From: a bacterium
Lineage (GTDB): Bacteria; Bacillota_I; Bacilli_A; RFN20; DUOZ01
Length of the DNA stretch: 32,238 bases
Reading direction: 5' to 3'
Assembly: GCA_012838555.1 (NCBI GenBank)
Contig: DUOZ01000109.1
Span: forward strand, 1 to 32,238
Shown here piece after piece: positions 1 to 24,127 of this stretch. The notes under the pieces were generated by a model that saw nothing but the letters and a program-made list of their open reading frames with translations, ran no database searches and was not told the origin of the DNA. Every line of letters begins with the position of its first letter. The first letter of the stretch is position 1. Made by a program: the position numbers and the translations under genes.

Positions 1-1328
1 ACAAAAGAGGAGGCCTAATTTTTGAAATCGGTCAACAAAACGGCTTACGTTATACCTTATATTTAGATGACATTATTATTTATGAAGTTGATGATTCATA
101 TTTTAATAAATACAATTTAAACGATGTAGAAGGAGAACCTATTATCACAAATGTTCCTACTATTTATGTAAATACAATTAATAATCAGCAAGTTCCTTAT
201 GATAAAAATATCTATGTTGATGGTACTTTTAATTTAGTTGATGGAGAAAATCCATTCTTAAATATTAATGATTTATCATTAAGAATTAGAGCTAGAGGTA
301 ATAGTAGCCTTTGGATGCCAAAACGATCTTATAGAATTAAATTTAATAAAGCTGTTGATTTATATGGTATGAATAAGAATAAAGACTGGGTTTTACTTGC
401 TAATCATGCTGATAAATCATTAATAAGGAATTATTTAGCCTTTGAGTTAGGTAGTAAACTTTCTAACTTAGAATACACACCTCAATGTATGTTTGTTAAC
501 TTCTATTTTAATAACAATTATGAAGGTCTTTATTTACTTGCTACTCAAATTGAAACAGGTACTAATAGAGTCAATATCGAATATGATTACACTAATGATG
601 ATATTGACATCCCATTCTTAATTGAATGGGATAATCGTTTAACAAATCCTAATGAAAATAATGGAGCTATTGAAGGAATTGATTATTTTGTTGTTGATTG
701 GATACCTTTTGGTTTAAAATATCCAGATTCATTTAATGAAATGACTTATAATCAAAAAAGATATATCTATAATTATATGAACAACGTTCATACTAGTATC
801 TTAAATAGAAAGAATTATGATAGTTTTATTGATGTAGACTCATTTATTGATTATTTTATTGTTCAAGAATTATTTAAGAATGTTGATATGGGATTCGCTA
901 GTGTCTTTATGTATAAAGAAAAAGGTGGAAAATTAAAATTTGGACCACTTTGGGATTTTGACTTAAGTATTGGTAATGCCGATTACATTGATTATAGTCC
1001 TTATAATTGGTTCAGTCAGGATAACTCAGGTAATCCATGGTTTAATAGTTTAATGAAGCACCCAACATTTAAGAAACAATTTACGAAGAGATTTAATGAA
1101 GTTAAAAATACTATTATTCAAGATTTAATTGATAGTGTTGATATTATTGGAAGAGATTTATATGAACATGCTTCTAACAACTTTGAAAGATGGAAAACAC
1201 TAGGTAAATATGATTGGCCTAATCCACCTAAAGTTGTAGCAGCCTCAACGTACGATGAACAAATTTATTATGTTAAAAATTACTTAATCGAACGAGTTAA
1301 ATGGATGGATTATGTCTTAAATGAATAA
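1..1328 (+). CDS. CotH-family protein, 5'-truncated by the window edge
   Basis: The reading frame is open from base 3 and ends at TAA 1326-1328; the beginning lies outside the window. The ATG at 315 is internal, because the frame continues unbroken upstream and the CotH core begins before it (RARGNSS at about 285-308). Within the core I see PKRSYRIKF, then ADKSLIRNYLAFEL, and GPLWDFDLSIGN near 945-975. The last of these matches the metal-binding DFD segment of CotH protein-kinase-like domains. The first 30 or so codons (RGGLIFEIG, then YTLYLDDIIIYE) resemble the end of a jelly-roll carbohydrate-binding module; that part is inference. CotH is a spore-coat kinase in Bacillus, but many bacteria carry secreted CotH proteins attached to other domains and not tied to spores. 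Family confidence is high; the role is unknown. Confidence 0.85.
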   Translation, partial: KRGGLIFEIGQQNGLRYTLYLDDIIIYEVDDSYFNKYNLNDVEGEPIITNVPTIYVNTINNQQVPYDKNIYVDGTFNLVDGENPFLNINDLSLRIRARGNSSLWMPKRSYRIKFNKAVDLYGMNKNKDWVLLANHADKSLIRNYLAFELGSKLSNLEYTPQCMFVNFYFNNNYEGLYLLATQIETGTNRVNIEYDYTNDDIDIPFLIEWDNRLTNPNENNGAIEGIDYFVVDWIPFGLKYPDSFNEMTYNQKRYIYNYMNNVHTSILNRKNYDSFIDVDSFIDYFIVQELFKNVDMGFASVFMYKEKGGKLKFGPLWDFDLSIGNADYIDYSPYNWFSQDNSGNPWFNSLMKHPTFKKQFTKRFNEVKNTIIQDLIDSVDIIGRDLYEHASNNFERWKTLGKYDWPNPPKVVAASTYDEQIYYVKNYLIERVKWMDYVLNE

Positions 1329-18038: not shown

Positions 18039-18063
18039 AAAATTAGAAATGGGGAGTTTCTTA

Positions 18064-19347
18064 ATGAAGGTGTCGTACGTTAGATATGCTTTGGGTATTC
18101 TTGCCCTATCCATGATATCCCAATTATATCACTCATACAACTATTCCTTCTATGTGGATGAATTGGGACTAGCAGTTGCTTTAGCTACTTTAACTAAAAT
18201 TATCTTTATCGGTTTTGATGCAATTAACGATATGTTTATTGCTAGGTTTTCCGATAGAACCGAAACAAAACGCGGTAAAAGGACACCTTGGCTATTATAT
18301 TGTGCCCCATATTTGGCAATTGCTTTAGTTATTTCTTATCTTCCTGATAAACAATTAGATAAATCATTACTCTTTGTTTATTATTTAATTACATCATTAA
18401 TATTTGAAGTCTTTGCGACAATTATGTATATCAATTATGGAGCCTTATTTCCAATTATTTATAAAAGTGAAACTGAACGTGCGAATGCATCAATAACCAA
18501 GCAATTTTTTTCCTTTATCGGGATGGTTATTGGAGCAGCATTACCACCCTTTTTATTTAATCATATTGGATATCGATTAACAGCTATTATCTATGCAATA
18601 ATTTATATTATCATTATGTATATTTGTATAAGTGGACTACATGAAACATCCTTTGAATATAAAAAGAAGTTTAATAATGAAGAAGTTAAATTGTTTGACG
18701 CTTTTAAAAATACATATCAAAATAAGCGATTTATTTTTTATAATTTAGCTCAAGCATTTTCCTTAAGCGTAAACTCAATTATTTTAACAATTTTTCCTTT
18801 CTATGCTGAATATAGTATTAAAATATCAAAATCTCAACAAACATTACTTTGGTTTTCTTTGTTCTTAGGAACATTTGCTTCCTTACCAATCTGGCGTAAA
18901 ACCGTTATTAAAAATGGGTTTAATAATACATGGATGTTATCATTTGTTATTTATGCATTTACTTTACTAACTCTCTTATTCGCTTATGACTTCAACAGTG
19001 GCCTTTTCGCCGCTTTCTTAATCGGTATTGGACTCGCAGGTGTCTTTGTAACTCCAGACCTTATCATGGCTTATATCATCGATTTGGACTTTAAGAAACA
19101 TCAAGTCCATCGAGAAGCTTCATTTATGGCAATTAGTAATTTTGTTCAAAAATTATCACTTGCTATTTCTGTAATTGTTGTCTGGGGAATTACATCAATA
19201 TTTGGATTTGTGAGTGGTGACAACCCTGGAGATCACCCAGGATTAACATTTAGTGTATTAATGGGATTAATACCTGTCGTCTTACTAGCTATTGGTTATA
19301 TTTTTGTTAAAAAATATATAAATTACGATAATACCCATATAGATTAA
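18064..19347 (+). CDS. MFS transporter, glycoside-pentoside-hexuronide:cation symporter type
   Basis: A polytopic membrane protein of 427 aa with about 12 hydrophobic segments. The segment GFDAINDMFIARFSDRTETK, followed by RGKRTPWLLYCAPY, matches the conserved loop 2-3 of the MFS_2 (MelB-like, GPH) family, which couples sugar uptake to Na+ or H+. The substrate cannot be read from sequence. I start at ATG 18064 because GGGGAG (18051-18056) is 7 bases upstream; the ATG at 18049 would sit on top of that SD. It is a single gene between divergent pth and a bidirectional terminator, with no sugar-metabolism neighbours. Confidence 0.88.
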   Translation: MKVSYVRYALGILALSMISQLYHSYNYSFYVDELGLAVALATLTKIIFIGFDAINDMFIARFSDRTETKRGKRTPWLLYCAPYLAIALVISYLPDKQLDKSLLFVYYLITSLIFEVFATIMYINYGALFPIIYKSETERANASITKQFFSFIGMVIGAALPPFLFNHIGYRLTAIIYAIIYIIIMYICISGLHETSFEYKKKFNNEEVKLFDAFKNTYQNKRFIFYNLAQAFSLSVNSIILTIFPFYAEYSIKISKSQQTLLWFSLFLGTFASLPIWRKTVIKNGFNNTWMLSFVIYAFTLLTLLFAYDFNSGLFAAFLIGIGLAGVFVTPDLIMAYIIDLDFKKHQVHREASFMAISNFVQKLSLAISVIVVWGITSIFGFVSGDNPGDHPGLTFSVLMGLIPVVLLAIGYIFVKKYINYDNTHID

Positions 19348-19381
19348 AAAGGGTTAACTCTATAATTAGAATTAACCCTTT
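19348..19381 (+). terminator. Terminator after the MFS gene, possibly bidirectional
   Basis: AAAGGGTTAA (19348-19357) pairs with TTAACCCTTT (19372-19381) directly after the MFS stop codon. The T run is weak on the plus strand but good (TTTTTAATC) on the minus strand. Confidence 0.7.
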
Positions 19382-19389
19382 ATATTGAA

Positions 19390-19440
19390 TGAATAGTAAG
19401 CTATAAGGACAAAACCGACATAGCATTTTATAACTATTCA
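19390..19440. other. Nested hairpin sharing motifs with the large RNA
   Basis: TGAATAGT (19390-19397) pairs with ACTATTCA (19433-19440). Inside it GCTAT (19400-19404) pairs with ATAGC (19420-19424), closing a 15-base loop (19405-19419) that reads AAGGACAAAACCGAC. AAGGACAAA and AAAACCG also occur together at 19592-19617, inside the neighbouring RNA gene. The strand is unclear: on the plus strand it lies just past the MFS terminator, on the minus strand just past the large-RNA terminator. Confidence 0.5.
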
Positions 19441-19511
19441 TGCAATACTATTTTAAGCACCTTCTTATTTATTATTAATCCATTTAATGGAAACAATATT
19501 CAATAATTTAT

Positions 19512-19553
19512 TAAAATAAAAAGGCATAATATCCAACAAGGATAGAATGCCTT
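19512..19553 (-). terminator. Rho-independent terminator of the large RNA
   Basis: On the minus strand GGCAT...TATCC (from 19551) pairs with GGATA...ATGCC (ending 19523), closing a short loop, followed by TTTTTATTTT. It sets the orientation and 3' end of the RNA. Confidence 0.85.
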
Positions 19554-20041
19554 CTTAATTTACAACCTGTAAAGGTTGGTGGAATCTTCTTAAGGACAAA
19601 TGTTCCACGCAAAACCGCAAGTTTTTTTAAGGTGCATCTTGCAACACCCCTAGGTCTATAATCGATAGACTTCGTTCTGCCATAAGCTGACAGCAGCCAT
19701 CCTTCATCTCAAGGACAGAGTTGCGACCGTAAAGGTCTCCGATTATAACGTATTTCTCACGGACTATTCACGCTGTCAAGCGATCCACATAATCTGTACG
19801 TGGTAACAGCCATTTTGTGTAAAATGGTAAACTGCGCGCATAATAACAGGGGTCTGTTCCAGTCTTTCTTGTTTACATCTTGAAATCTTGGTTAAACAAT
19901 GATGTACCTTTGGTGGTAAACCGTACTTTTTGATAAGAACTTTTAACTTACGGCTGATATAGGAAGCCTGCACCTACTTGATTTTATGGATATATCAAGT
20001 GAAACCGAACACTTGAACACTTAATATAAGCGTTCTTGTTC
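19512..20041 (-). ncRNA. Large structured non-coding RNA candidate (about 525 nt)
   Basis: There is no credible protein gene here, yet 19621-19980 is 41% GC (149 of 360 bases counted), well above the AT-rich surroundings. The minus strand folds into a row of perfect local helices: 20041-20007 (GAACGCTTA/TAAGTGTTC plus GAACA/TGTTC), 20000-19976 (ACTTGAT/ATCAAGT), 19968-19952, 19906-19874 (TACATC/GATGTA), 19858-19845, 19827-19810 (CCATTTT-ACAC-AAAATGG), 19779-19687 (TTGACAGC/GCTGTCAG, enclosing GACC/GGTC and TCCTT/AAGGA hairpins), 19670-19654 (GTCTAT/ATAGAC), 19608-19579 (GTGGAA/TTCCAC) and 19578-19563 (CAACCT-TTAC-AGGTTG). GTACG at 19926-19922 can pair with CGTAC at 19800-19796 to close a multibranch domain. 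A rho-independent terminator ends it. Size and isolation recall OLE, ROOL and GOLLD RNAs, but I cannot match it to any of them by eye. No clear promoter was found. A 65-codon frame inside it looks spurious. Confidence 0.7.
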
Positions 20042-20082
20042 ACTATTAATTTATGCAATATTTGTAAAAAATATACTAAAAC

Positions 20083-20133: not shown

Positions 20134-20397
20134 CTATCTGGTTTCAACTATGAGTTTAATGGCTGTTCTTACTTGTCCGTCAATAGTAACATCACTAAAT
20201 GCCGGGACAATAATCAAATCTCGACCACTAGGCGCCACAAATCCTCGAGCGATGGCAACAGCTTTTACAGCTTGGTTAAGGGCACCTGCTCCAATCGCTT
20301 GAATCTCGACTTTGGAGTATTCCCTAATAACATTAGCCAATGCTCCAGCCACAGAATTCGGATTGGATTTAGAAGATACTTTTAATGTTTCTTTCAT
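20134..20397 (-). CDS. spoVS: Stage V sporulation protein S
   Basis: An 87-aa Alba-like protein of the SpoVS family: MKETLKVSSKSNPNSVAGAL at the start, IQAIGAGALNQAVKA in the middle and IDGQVRTAIKLIVE at the end, with normal length. In Bacillus it affects spore coat and septum steps, and it also occurs in non-spore-formers, where it may be a nucleic-acid binder. A strong SD (GAGGAGG) precedes the ATG. It is third after rny and ymdB, the same order as in Bacillus. Confidence 0.95.
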   Translation of the reverse strand: MKETLKVSSKSNPNSVAGALANVIREYSKVEIQAIGAGALNQAVKAVAIARGFVAPSGRDLIIVPAFSDVTIDGQVRTAIKLIVETR

Positions 20398-22818: not shown

Positions 22819-23119
22819 ACTATTCTCCTCCTTGATTTTTATCATTTATTTACCATGTAATAATATAGATAACGCATTCTTTTGACTAAATGCGGTATTG
22901 AGTCAACTAGAATAAACTCTATACATACTTATTGTAATATAAAAAAGCCCATTTATTCAATAGGAATGTAAAAAAAGAAAGCAGATACCCCCCCTTTTCG
23001 TATAAATAATTCATTTATTCTAGAATTATAAACTAACCTAACATTTACTTTGTTGAATTTTGCTAGTCTTTGAAAGCAAAAAAGTGCGACATCTAAACAT
23101 CGCACTTAAAGACATCTTA
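22819..23119. other. Intergenic region upstream of rny, with an interleaved inverted repeat
   Basis: This holds the rny leader and promoter region and, at the far end, the recA terminator. A possible -10 for rny (TATATT, minus strand 22867-22862) is weak. Two 6-bp inverted repeats interleave at 22873-22906. A C7 tract is at 22988-22994 (G7 on the rny strand), rare in such AT-rich DNA. No gene is seen. Confidence 0.6.
23078..23107 (-). terminator. Terminator of pgsA-pncC-recA
   Basis: On the minus strand AAGTGCGA (23107-23100) pairs with TCGCACTT (23089-23082), followed by a TTTTT run. Confidence 0.92.
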
Positions 23120-24127
23120 TTATTTATTTTGATTTTGAATTCTTTCTTTAATAAGTGAAGTTACCTCATTCATAACTAATTTATTCTCTTTTAGATAGTT
23201 TTTAGCAACTTCTCTTCCTTGTCCCATCTTTTCTCCATTATATTCATACCAAGATCCACTCTTTTTAATAATGTCAAAATTAACAGCTAAATCAAGAATT
23301 TCACCCTCTTTAGAAATTCCTTGACCATATAAAATTTCTAAAGAAGCAGTTTTAAATGGAGGGGCAACTTTATTTTTTACAACCTTAACGTTAACCGCAT
23401 TACCAATAATATCGCTACCGCGTTTAATTGATTCAGCACGTCTAACTTCTAATCTAATTGTTGAATAGAATTTTAATGCTCTTCCACCAGGAGTGACTTC
23501 AGGATTACCAAAGATAATGCCTACTTTCTCTCTTAATTGGTTAATAAAAACAATACAACAATTACCTCTATTTAAATTAGCAGTTAGCTTTCTTAATGCT
23601 TTTGACATTAATCTAGCTTGTAAACCAACTTGAGCATCGGTCATTTCTCCTTCTAATTCGGCTTGAGGTACTAATGCCGCAACAGAGTCAACAACAATTA
23701 AATCAATAGCTTGAGATTTAACAAGCATATCGGCGATTTCTAACGCCTGTTCACCAGAATCAGGTTGAGAAAGAATTAATTCATCGATATTTACACCAAG
23801 ATTTTGAGCATATGTTGGATCAATTGCATGTTCTGCATCAATAAATGCTGCTCTTCCACCTTGATTTTGACATTCTGCTATAGCATGTAAAGCAAAAGTT
23901 GTTTTACCACTTGATTCAGGTCCATATATTTCAATAACTCTACCTTTAGGATATCCTCCAACACCTAATGCAAAATCTAGCATTAATGAACCAGAAGGAA
24001 TAACATCAACTTCAACCGCTGGTCTTTCCCCAAGTTTCATTACTGCTCCATCACCAAATTGTTTTCTAATATTTCTTAACGTTTCATTAAGCATATCTTC
24101 AGCTTTTTTAATTTTAGGTTCAGCCAT
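23120..24127 (-). CDS. recA: Recombinase RecA
   Basis: An ATP-dependent strand-exchange protein and LexA coprotease. Walker [10 protein letters not shown] is at about 69-77. Also present are [13 protein letters not shown], the Walker B region [12 protein letters not shown], the L2 loop region INQLREKVG...[10 protein letters not shown], and the C-terminal domain. I set the start at ATG 24127 (MAEPKIKK, 335 aa): the SD AAGGAG is 8 bases upstream, and the GTG at 24136 lies within it. It is the last gene of an operon with pgsA and pncC, an arrangement like Bacillus. No LexA box was seen in the short gap before it. Confidence 0.98.

Follow-up and report, generated by a model that had tools for sequence, protein, structure and literature searches.

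A candidate stand-alone structured RNA of about 525 nt, without an Rfam match, downstream of spoVS in a Bacilli genome

Very few classes of bacterial RNA longer than 500 nt are known, and several of them proved to be elaborate machines or particles. The closest described systems to the locus presented here are ROOL and OLE, each of which assembles into homo-oligomers (PMC12286853). ROOL is a stand-alone RNA gene with an ornate multibranch fold and ~40% GC, found in AT-rich Bacillota hosts on phages or megaplasmids, and its conserved sequence blocks include AGUAGCC and GGUGAAA. OLE is a large stable RNA of ~600 nt from Bacillota, usually located next to isoprenoid genes, with an uncertain biochemical function. 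The 520-nt RNA of the Ligilactobacillus salivarius megaplasmid, initially described as species-specific (PMC5643018), is counted among the ROOL RNAs in PMC12286853. Published searches for structured RNAs make use of the GC-rich gaps of AT-rich genomes (PMC6429828, PMC8632094, PMC11109978), and it is in such a gap that our candidate was found; it resembles ROOL in length, gene organization, predicted fold, host and GC content, and OLE as a large Bacillota RNA, but differs from both in sequence and in genomic setting.

The window analysed in this study is a stretch of 32,238 bases that forms one entire contig of a 1.63-Mb draft genome (151 contigs, ~95% complete), the sole member of its own family among the genomes searched. 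It carries housekeeping genes of the chromosome (mnmG, rsmG, parA, parB, mfd, pth, spoVS, ymdB, rny, recA, dnaX and recR). The candidate RNA was placed inside a 786-bp gap between the end of a convergent, plus-strand MFS transporter gene (18049-19347; Pfam MFS_2, E 2e-56), which is its downstream neighbour, and the minus-strand spoVS gene (20134-20397; Pfam PF04232, E 3e-38), which lies upstream in the order rny-ymdB-spoVS. It is present as a single copy in the source genome and covers positions 19512-20041 of the minus strand, that is ~525-530 nt with an approximate 5′ end. Note that two sporulation-linked families, a CotH kinase (315-1328, plus strand) and SpoVS (20134-20397, minus strand), are encoded in this 1.6-Mb genome.

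The stretch forms a clear GC island, with 39.1% GC over its whole length and 41.4% in its core (19613-19955) versus 30.3% for the window, confirming the elevated value (41%) given in the initial annotation. The bases on either side have 24% and 19% GC, and the other long gaps of the window range from 18 to 28%, the sole other GC-rich gap being that of the class B RNase P RNA (RF00011; 25392-25729, minus strand, 296 bits), which is located just downstream of a gene with a DivIVA domain. The same signature is displayed by the two structured RNAs that are known independently in this genome, with GC contents of 46% (RNase P RNA) and 40.6% (tmRNA). The stretch was also said to hold no credible gene, and indeed its longest minus-strand ORF has 65 aa and none of its six frame pieces matched Pfam up to E = 10.

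The folding statistics single out the same region. The minus-strand fold has a z-score of −4.27, a stability attained by no dinucleotide shuffle out of 100, and in a scan of the whole window the 530-nt candidate region (z −4.4) and the RNase P RNA (z −4.3) stand against a background of 76 tiled windows whose z-scores average −1.4 (sd 1.4). When the terminator hairpin was removed, 0/200 shuffles matched the energy of the candidate. Under the same treatment, the minus strand contains 10 hairpins measuring 6 bp or more with G-U pairs allowed, a number reached by 6/200 shuffles; four of these hairpins are purely Watson-Crick (as many in 3/200), and an 11-bp helix spans more than 300 nt (equally long in 4/200). 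The plus strand without terminator gave 6 hairpins (139/200 shuffles) and a longest long-range helix of 5 bp (154/200), so that it was rejected as the RNA strand by this wobble test. Since the wobble-sensitive measures are unusual on the minus strand only, the RNA strand is very probably the minus strand, to which the terminator at the minus-strand 3′ end also points. The about ten perfect helices first reported are therefore ten only if G-U pairs are counted, whereas the long-range pairing described as 5 bp does exist and closes the core, its actual length being 11 bp with a mean pair probability of 0.90. Taken together, the GC island, the fold z-score, the strand-specific wobble signal and the terminator give good support to the initial reading of a large, structured non-coding RNA read from the minus strand. 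Computation supports its fold, its strand and its terminator, and we infer that it is transcribed and stable.

The anatomy, as drawn from the computed pair probabilities of one sequence, is predicted to run (5′ to 3′ on the minus strand) through three 5′ hairpins (20042-19956), a core closed by the helix P1, two 3′ hairpins and the terminator. The 5′ part would include a hairpin of 6 bp and 9 bp with a loop of 3 (20006-20042; mean pair probability 0.93-0.96) and the hairpin ACUUGAU/AUCAAGU (19976-20000; 0.95). P1 is the predicted 11-bp long-range helix, with two G-U pairs, formed by AGCCGUAAGUU (19945-19955) and AACUUGCGGUU (19613-19623), which encloses a core of 343 nt with a probability of 0.90. 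Inside P1, several hairpins exceed a probability of 0.9 and the centre is less certain: CCAUUUU/AAAAUGG (19810-19827; 0.91), CCACGUA/UAUGUGG with one G-U pair (19785-19803; 0.98), CUGUCCUU/AAGGAUGG with two G-U pairs (19697-19718; 0.94) and CUGUCA/UGGCAG (19677-19693; 0.65). The segment 19654-19670 may form the hairpin GUCUAU/AUAGAC or, alternatively, CGAUUAUA (19664-19657) may pair with UAUAAUCG (19747-19740), and forcing this latter helix into the core centre costs just 1 kcal/mol. The alternative fold would consist of nested closing helices P1, P2 and P3 leading to a multibranch tip, in which the possible P2 joins AAGGUaCAUC (19901-19910) to GAUGcACCUU (19629-19638) with one mismatch on the minus strand and a probability of ~0.55, and the possible P3, which belongs to the fold lying 1 kcal/mol from the best, joins ACCCCUG (19847-19853) to UAGGGGU (19646-19652) with a probability of 0.54. 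These two near-equal folds are inseparable from one sequence, and the middle of the core is accordingly poorly determined in the model. On the 3′ side, the hairpins GUGGAA/UUCCAC (19579-19608; 0.98) and CAACCU/AGGUUG (19563-19578; 0.96) are followed by the intrinsic terminator (19512-19557; 0.99), already proposed for the minus strand and here seen directly as an 11+5 bp hairpin (19557-19517) followed by UUUUUAUUUU.

With regard to known families, membership of one of those named in the initial annotation (OLE, ROOL, GOLLD, HEARO or raiA) is unsupported: a cmscan with all 4227 families of Rfam 15, under gathering and permissive filters, gave nothing on the candidate stretch (E ≤ 10). The stretch remained below the gathering thresholds of GOLLD, HEARO and raiA without any permissive match, and below that of ROOL (RF03087, 99.1 bits), for which neither the stretch, with E values as high as 10 allowed, nor the genome gave a match. 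As a positive control, the ROOL model recovered the 520-nt L. salivarius megaplasmid RNA at 130.4 bits with the same tool; a divergent ROOL is therefore within reach of this test, by which the candidate does not belong to ROOL. The ROOL blocks conserved in the control alignment, such as AGUAGCC and GGUGAAA, are absent from the candidate. For OLE (RF01071), the stretch stayed below the gathering threshold in the Rfam scan and no model match was obtained elsewhere in the genome; the firm OLE test is the Rfam scan of the stretch, as the genome-wide ROOL and OLE searches had no responding control and the OLE model was silent in all control genomes. The genomic setting differs as well, since ROOL lies with phages, prophages or tRNA arrays and the candidate is chromosomal, with mfd, pth, the MFS gene, spoVS, ymdB, rny and recA as neighbours. 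No tRNA gene was found in the window, no phage gene near the candidate in the window gene annotation and no isoprenoid gene nearby. Two other assignments were rejected: the tmRNA of the genome (RF00023) is located on another contig (C126:2610-2983, 136.5 bits), and a 525-nt multibranch RNA is unsuited to be a 6S RNA, none of which was detected in the source genome by the Rfam model.

The best surviving alternative is that the candidate has diverged strongly within one of the known large classes (ROOL, GOLLD, OLE or similar) and drifted past the Rfam models. Its length and texture would fit, and the L. salivarius ROOL, 520 nt long, was also once described as species-specific. That RNA is yet recognised by the ROOL model, while our candidate is silent even at E ≤ 10 under permissive filters, the ROOL and OLE models are silent across the genome, and neither the ROOL blocks nor phage or tRNA genes accompany it, all of which make this explanation unlikely. 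Because no Rfam family matches, the 'new one' is the better half of the initial either/or (a known family or a new one).

In the homologue searches, blastn of the stretch returned chance matches only, whether in the order (279 genomes), in the class (395) or in the phylum (392): those in the order were short, most of the six checked for ORFs lying within long coding frames, and those in the class and phylum comprised one recurring 26-nt match overlapping open reading frames. Phage and plasmid collections also gave chance matches only. Among eight pattern scans of IMG/VR, seven used 17-22 bases, of which six were empty and the seventh gave an 18-base match within a GC-rich, coding-like stretch devoid of further similarity; the 14-base pattern gave chance-level matches only. 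The inner core (19646-19853) also served for a covariance model, which found nothing beyond itself in 273 order genomes and, in the class, one 13.6-bit match inside an ORF, its reach being limited as it was built from one sequence and scored few first-look candidates. In contrast, the RNase P RNA of the same window was found by the same kind of search in 58/58 relatives, and an RNA equally conserved would thus have been seen. The candidate shares with this RNase P RNA an equal fold z-score, the GC-island signature and the window, but it misses the RF00011 model and lacks the conservation of RNase P within the order. In 22 relatives, the gap following spoVS held no comparable island, the next gene starting within tens to a few hundred bases, which leaves no room for the candidate, and a YmdB-based scan for contigs of relatives identified no close relative (best identity 48%). 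The lack of homologues in these searches means that the candidate is either confined to its family-level lineage or evolving fast, and it appears restricted to its own lineage.

The organization of the transcription unit bears on a second explanation, namely that the stretch would be a structured 3′ UTR extension of spoVS, reached through terminator read-through, or a precursor cut by RNase Y into smaller regulatory RNAs. The terminator attributed to spoVS in the initial annotation was found at 20114-20087 on the minus strand, where it separates spoVS from the candidate, though with only 3 G-C pairs in its 12-pair stem. In addition, promoter matches between this terminator and the first 5′ hairpin were no better than chance, and rny, the RNase Y gene, lies upstream in the same operon. 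However, the spoVS terminator does form a hairpin of 12 bp with a U-rich stretch after it, a 3′ UTR has no need of so large and ordered a core as that inside P1, and the relatives carry nothing comparable after spoVS, so that we regard this explanation as improbable. The independent transcription unit of the initial annotation is a plausible reading. No gene follows on the strand of the candidate before pth, and the control of a downstream gene in cis is therefore unlikely.

Other structured stretches were noticed in the window. A second structured element (19386-19460; minus-strand z −3.3), in the interval that separates the candidate from the MFS terminator, corresponds to a nested inverted repeat, in which ATGAATAGT...ACTATTCAT enclose a GCTATA/TAGC pairing, and the whole 19348-19511 gap reaches a z of −6.6, part of which is due to the MFS terminator. 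The stretch 22846-23480, covering the rny-recA interval and the recA 3′ end, has a z of ~−3.8 and folds better than average on both strands, likely because of terminators.

A pseudogene, the remains of a mobile element or an array of palindromes at the DNA level, with GC-rich inverted repeats kept by chance or through recent transfer, would account for the GC content above that of the genome, the lack of homologues and the absence from the same gap in relatives, but it is very improbable given that no frame piece matches Pfam, that the helices are unrelated in sequence, that wobble pairs function on one strand only, unexpectedly for DNA palindromes, that no phage or plasmid relative exists in the collections searched, and that direct repeats are absent, which led us to reject tandem or palindromic DNA.

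We therefore consider it probable, with good confidence, that the minus strand of the gap encodes a structured non-coding RNA of ~525 nt which stands alone, ends at an intrinsic terminator, is of a class not in Rfam and appears restricted to its lineage. As a structured RNA read from one sequence, it is a strong candidate. Four points count against this reading: the large RNAs known so far mostly extend far beyond a single family, unlike the candidate; one sequence cannot prove a conserved structure; the promoter matches are at chance level; and the core admits two folds within 1 kcal/mol. In the proposed scheme, the spoVS-MFS gap would encode the stand-alone RNA, which would fold into three 5′ hairpins, a multibranch core of 343 nt bounded by P1, two further hairpins on the 3′ side and the terminator, and would serve as a trans-acting stable RNA or RNP scaffold, much like OLE or ROOL. 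Such an action in trans is suggested because there is no downstream gene to control in cis, and by analogy we would put it at perhaps an even chance. Within the core, the self-complementary UGCGCGCA (19840-19833), a speculative site of self-association, would suit homo-oligomer contacts and hints weakly at them; 8-nt palindromes are frequent by chance, and an all-GC core such as that of UGCGCGCA is less so. On balance, belief and doubt weigh about equally on the wider proposal that a new class of large stand-alone structured RNAs (~525 nt), confined to one family-level Bacilli lineage, is seen here for the first time, its member forming a stable trans-acting RNA particle or RNP scaffold and possibly self-associating via exposed GC-rich loops, e.g., UGCGCGCA.

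A lineage-restricted RNA of this size in a small AT-rich genome would suggest the existence of more large RNAs, one family at a time. Such family-restricted RNAs would escape homology-based annotation, and the way to find them would be through the GC-rich gaps of AT-rich genomes.
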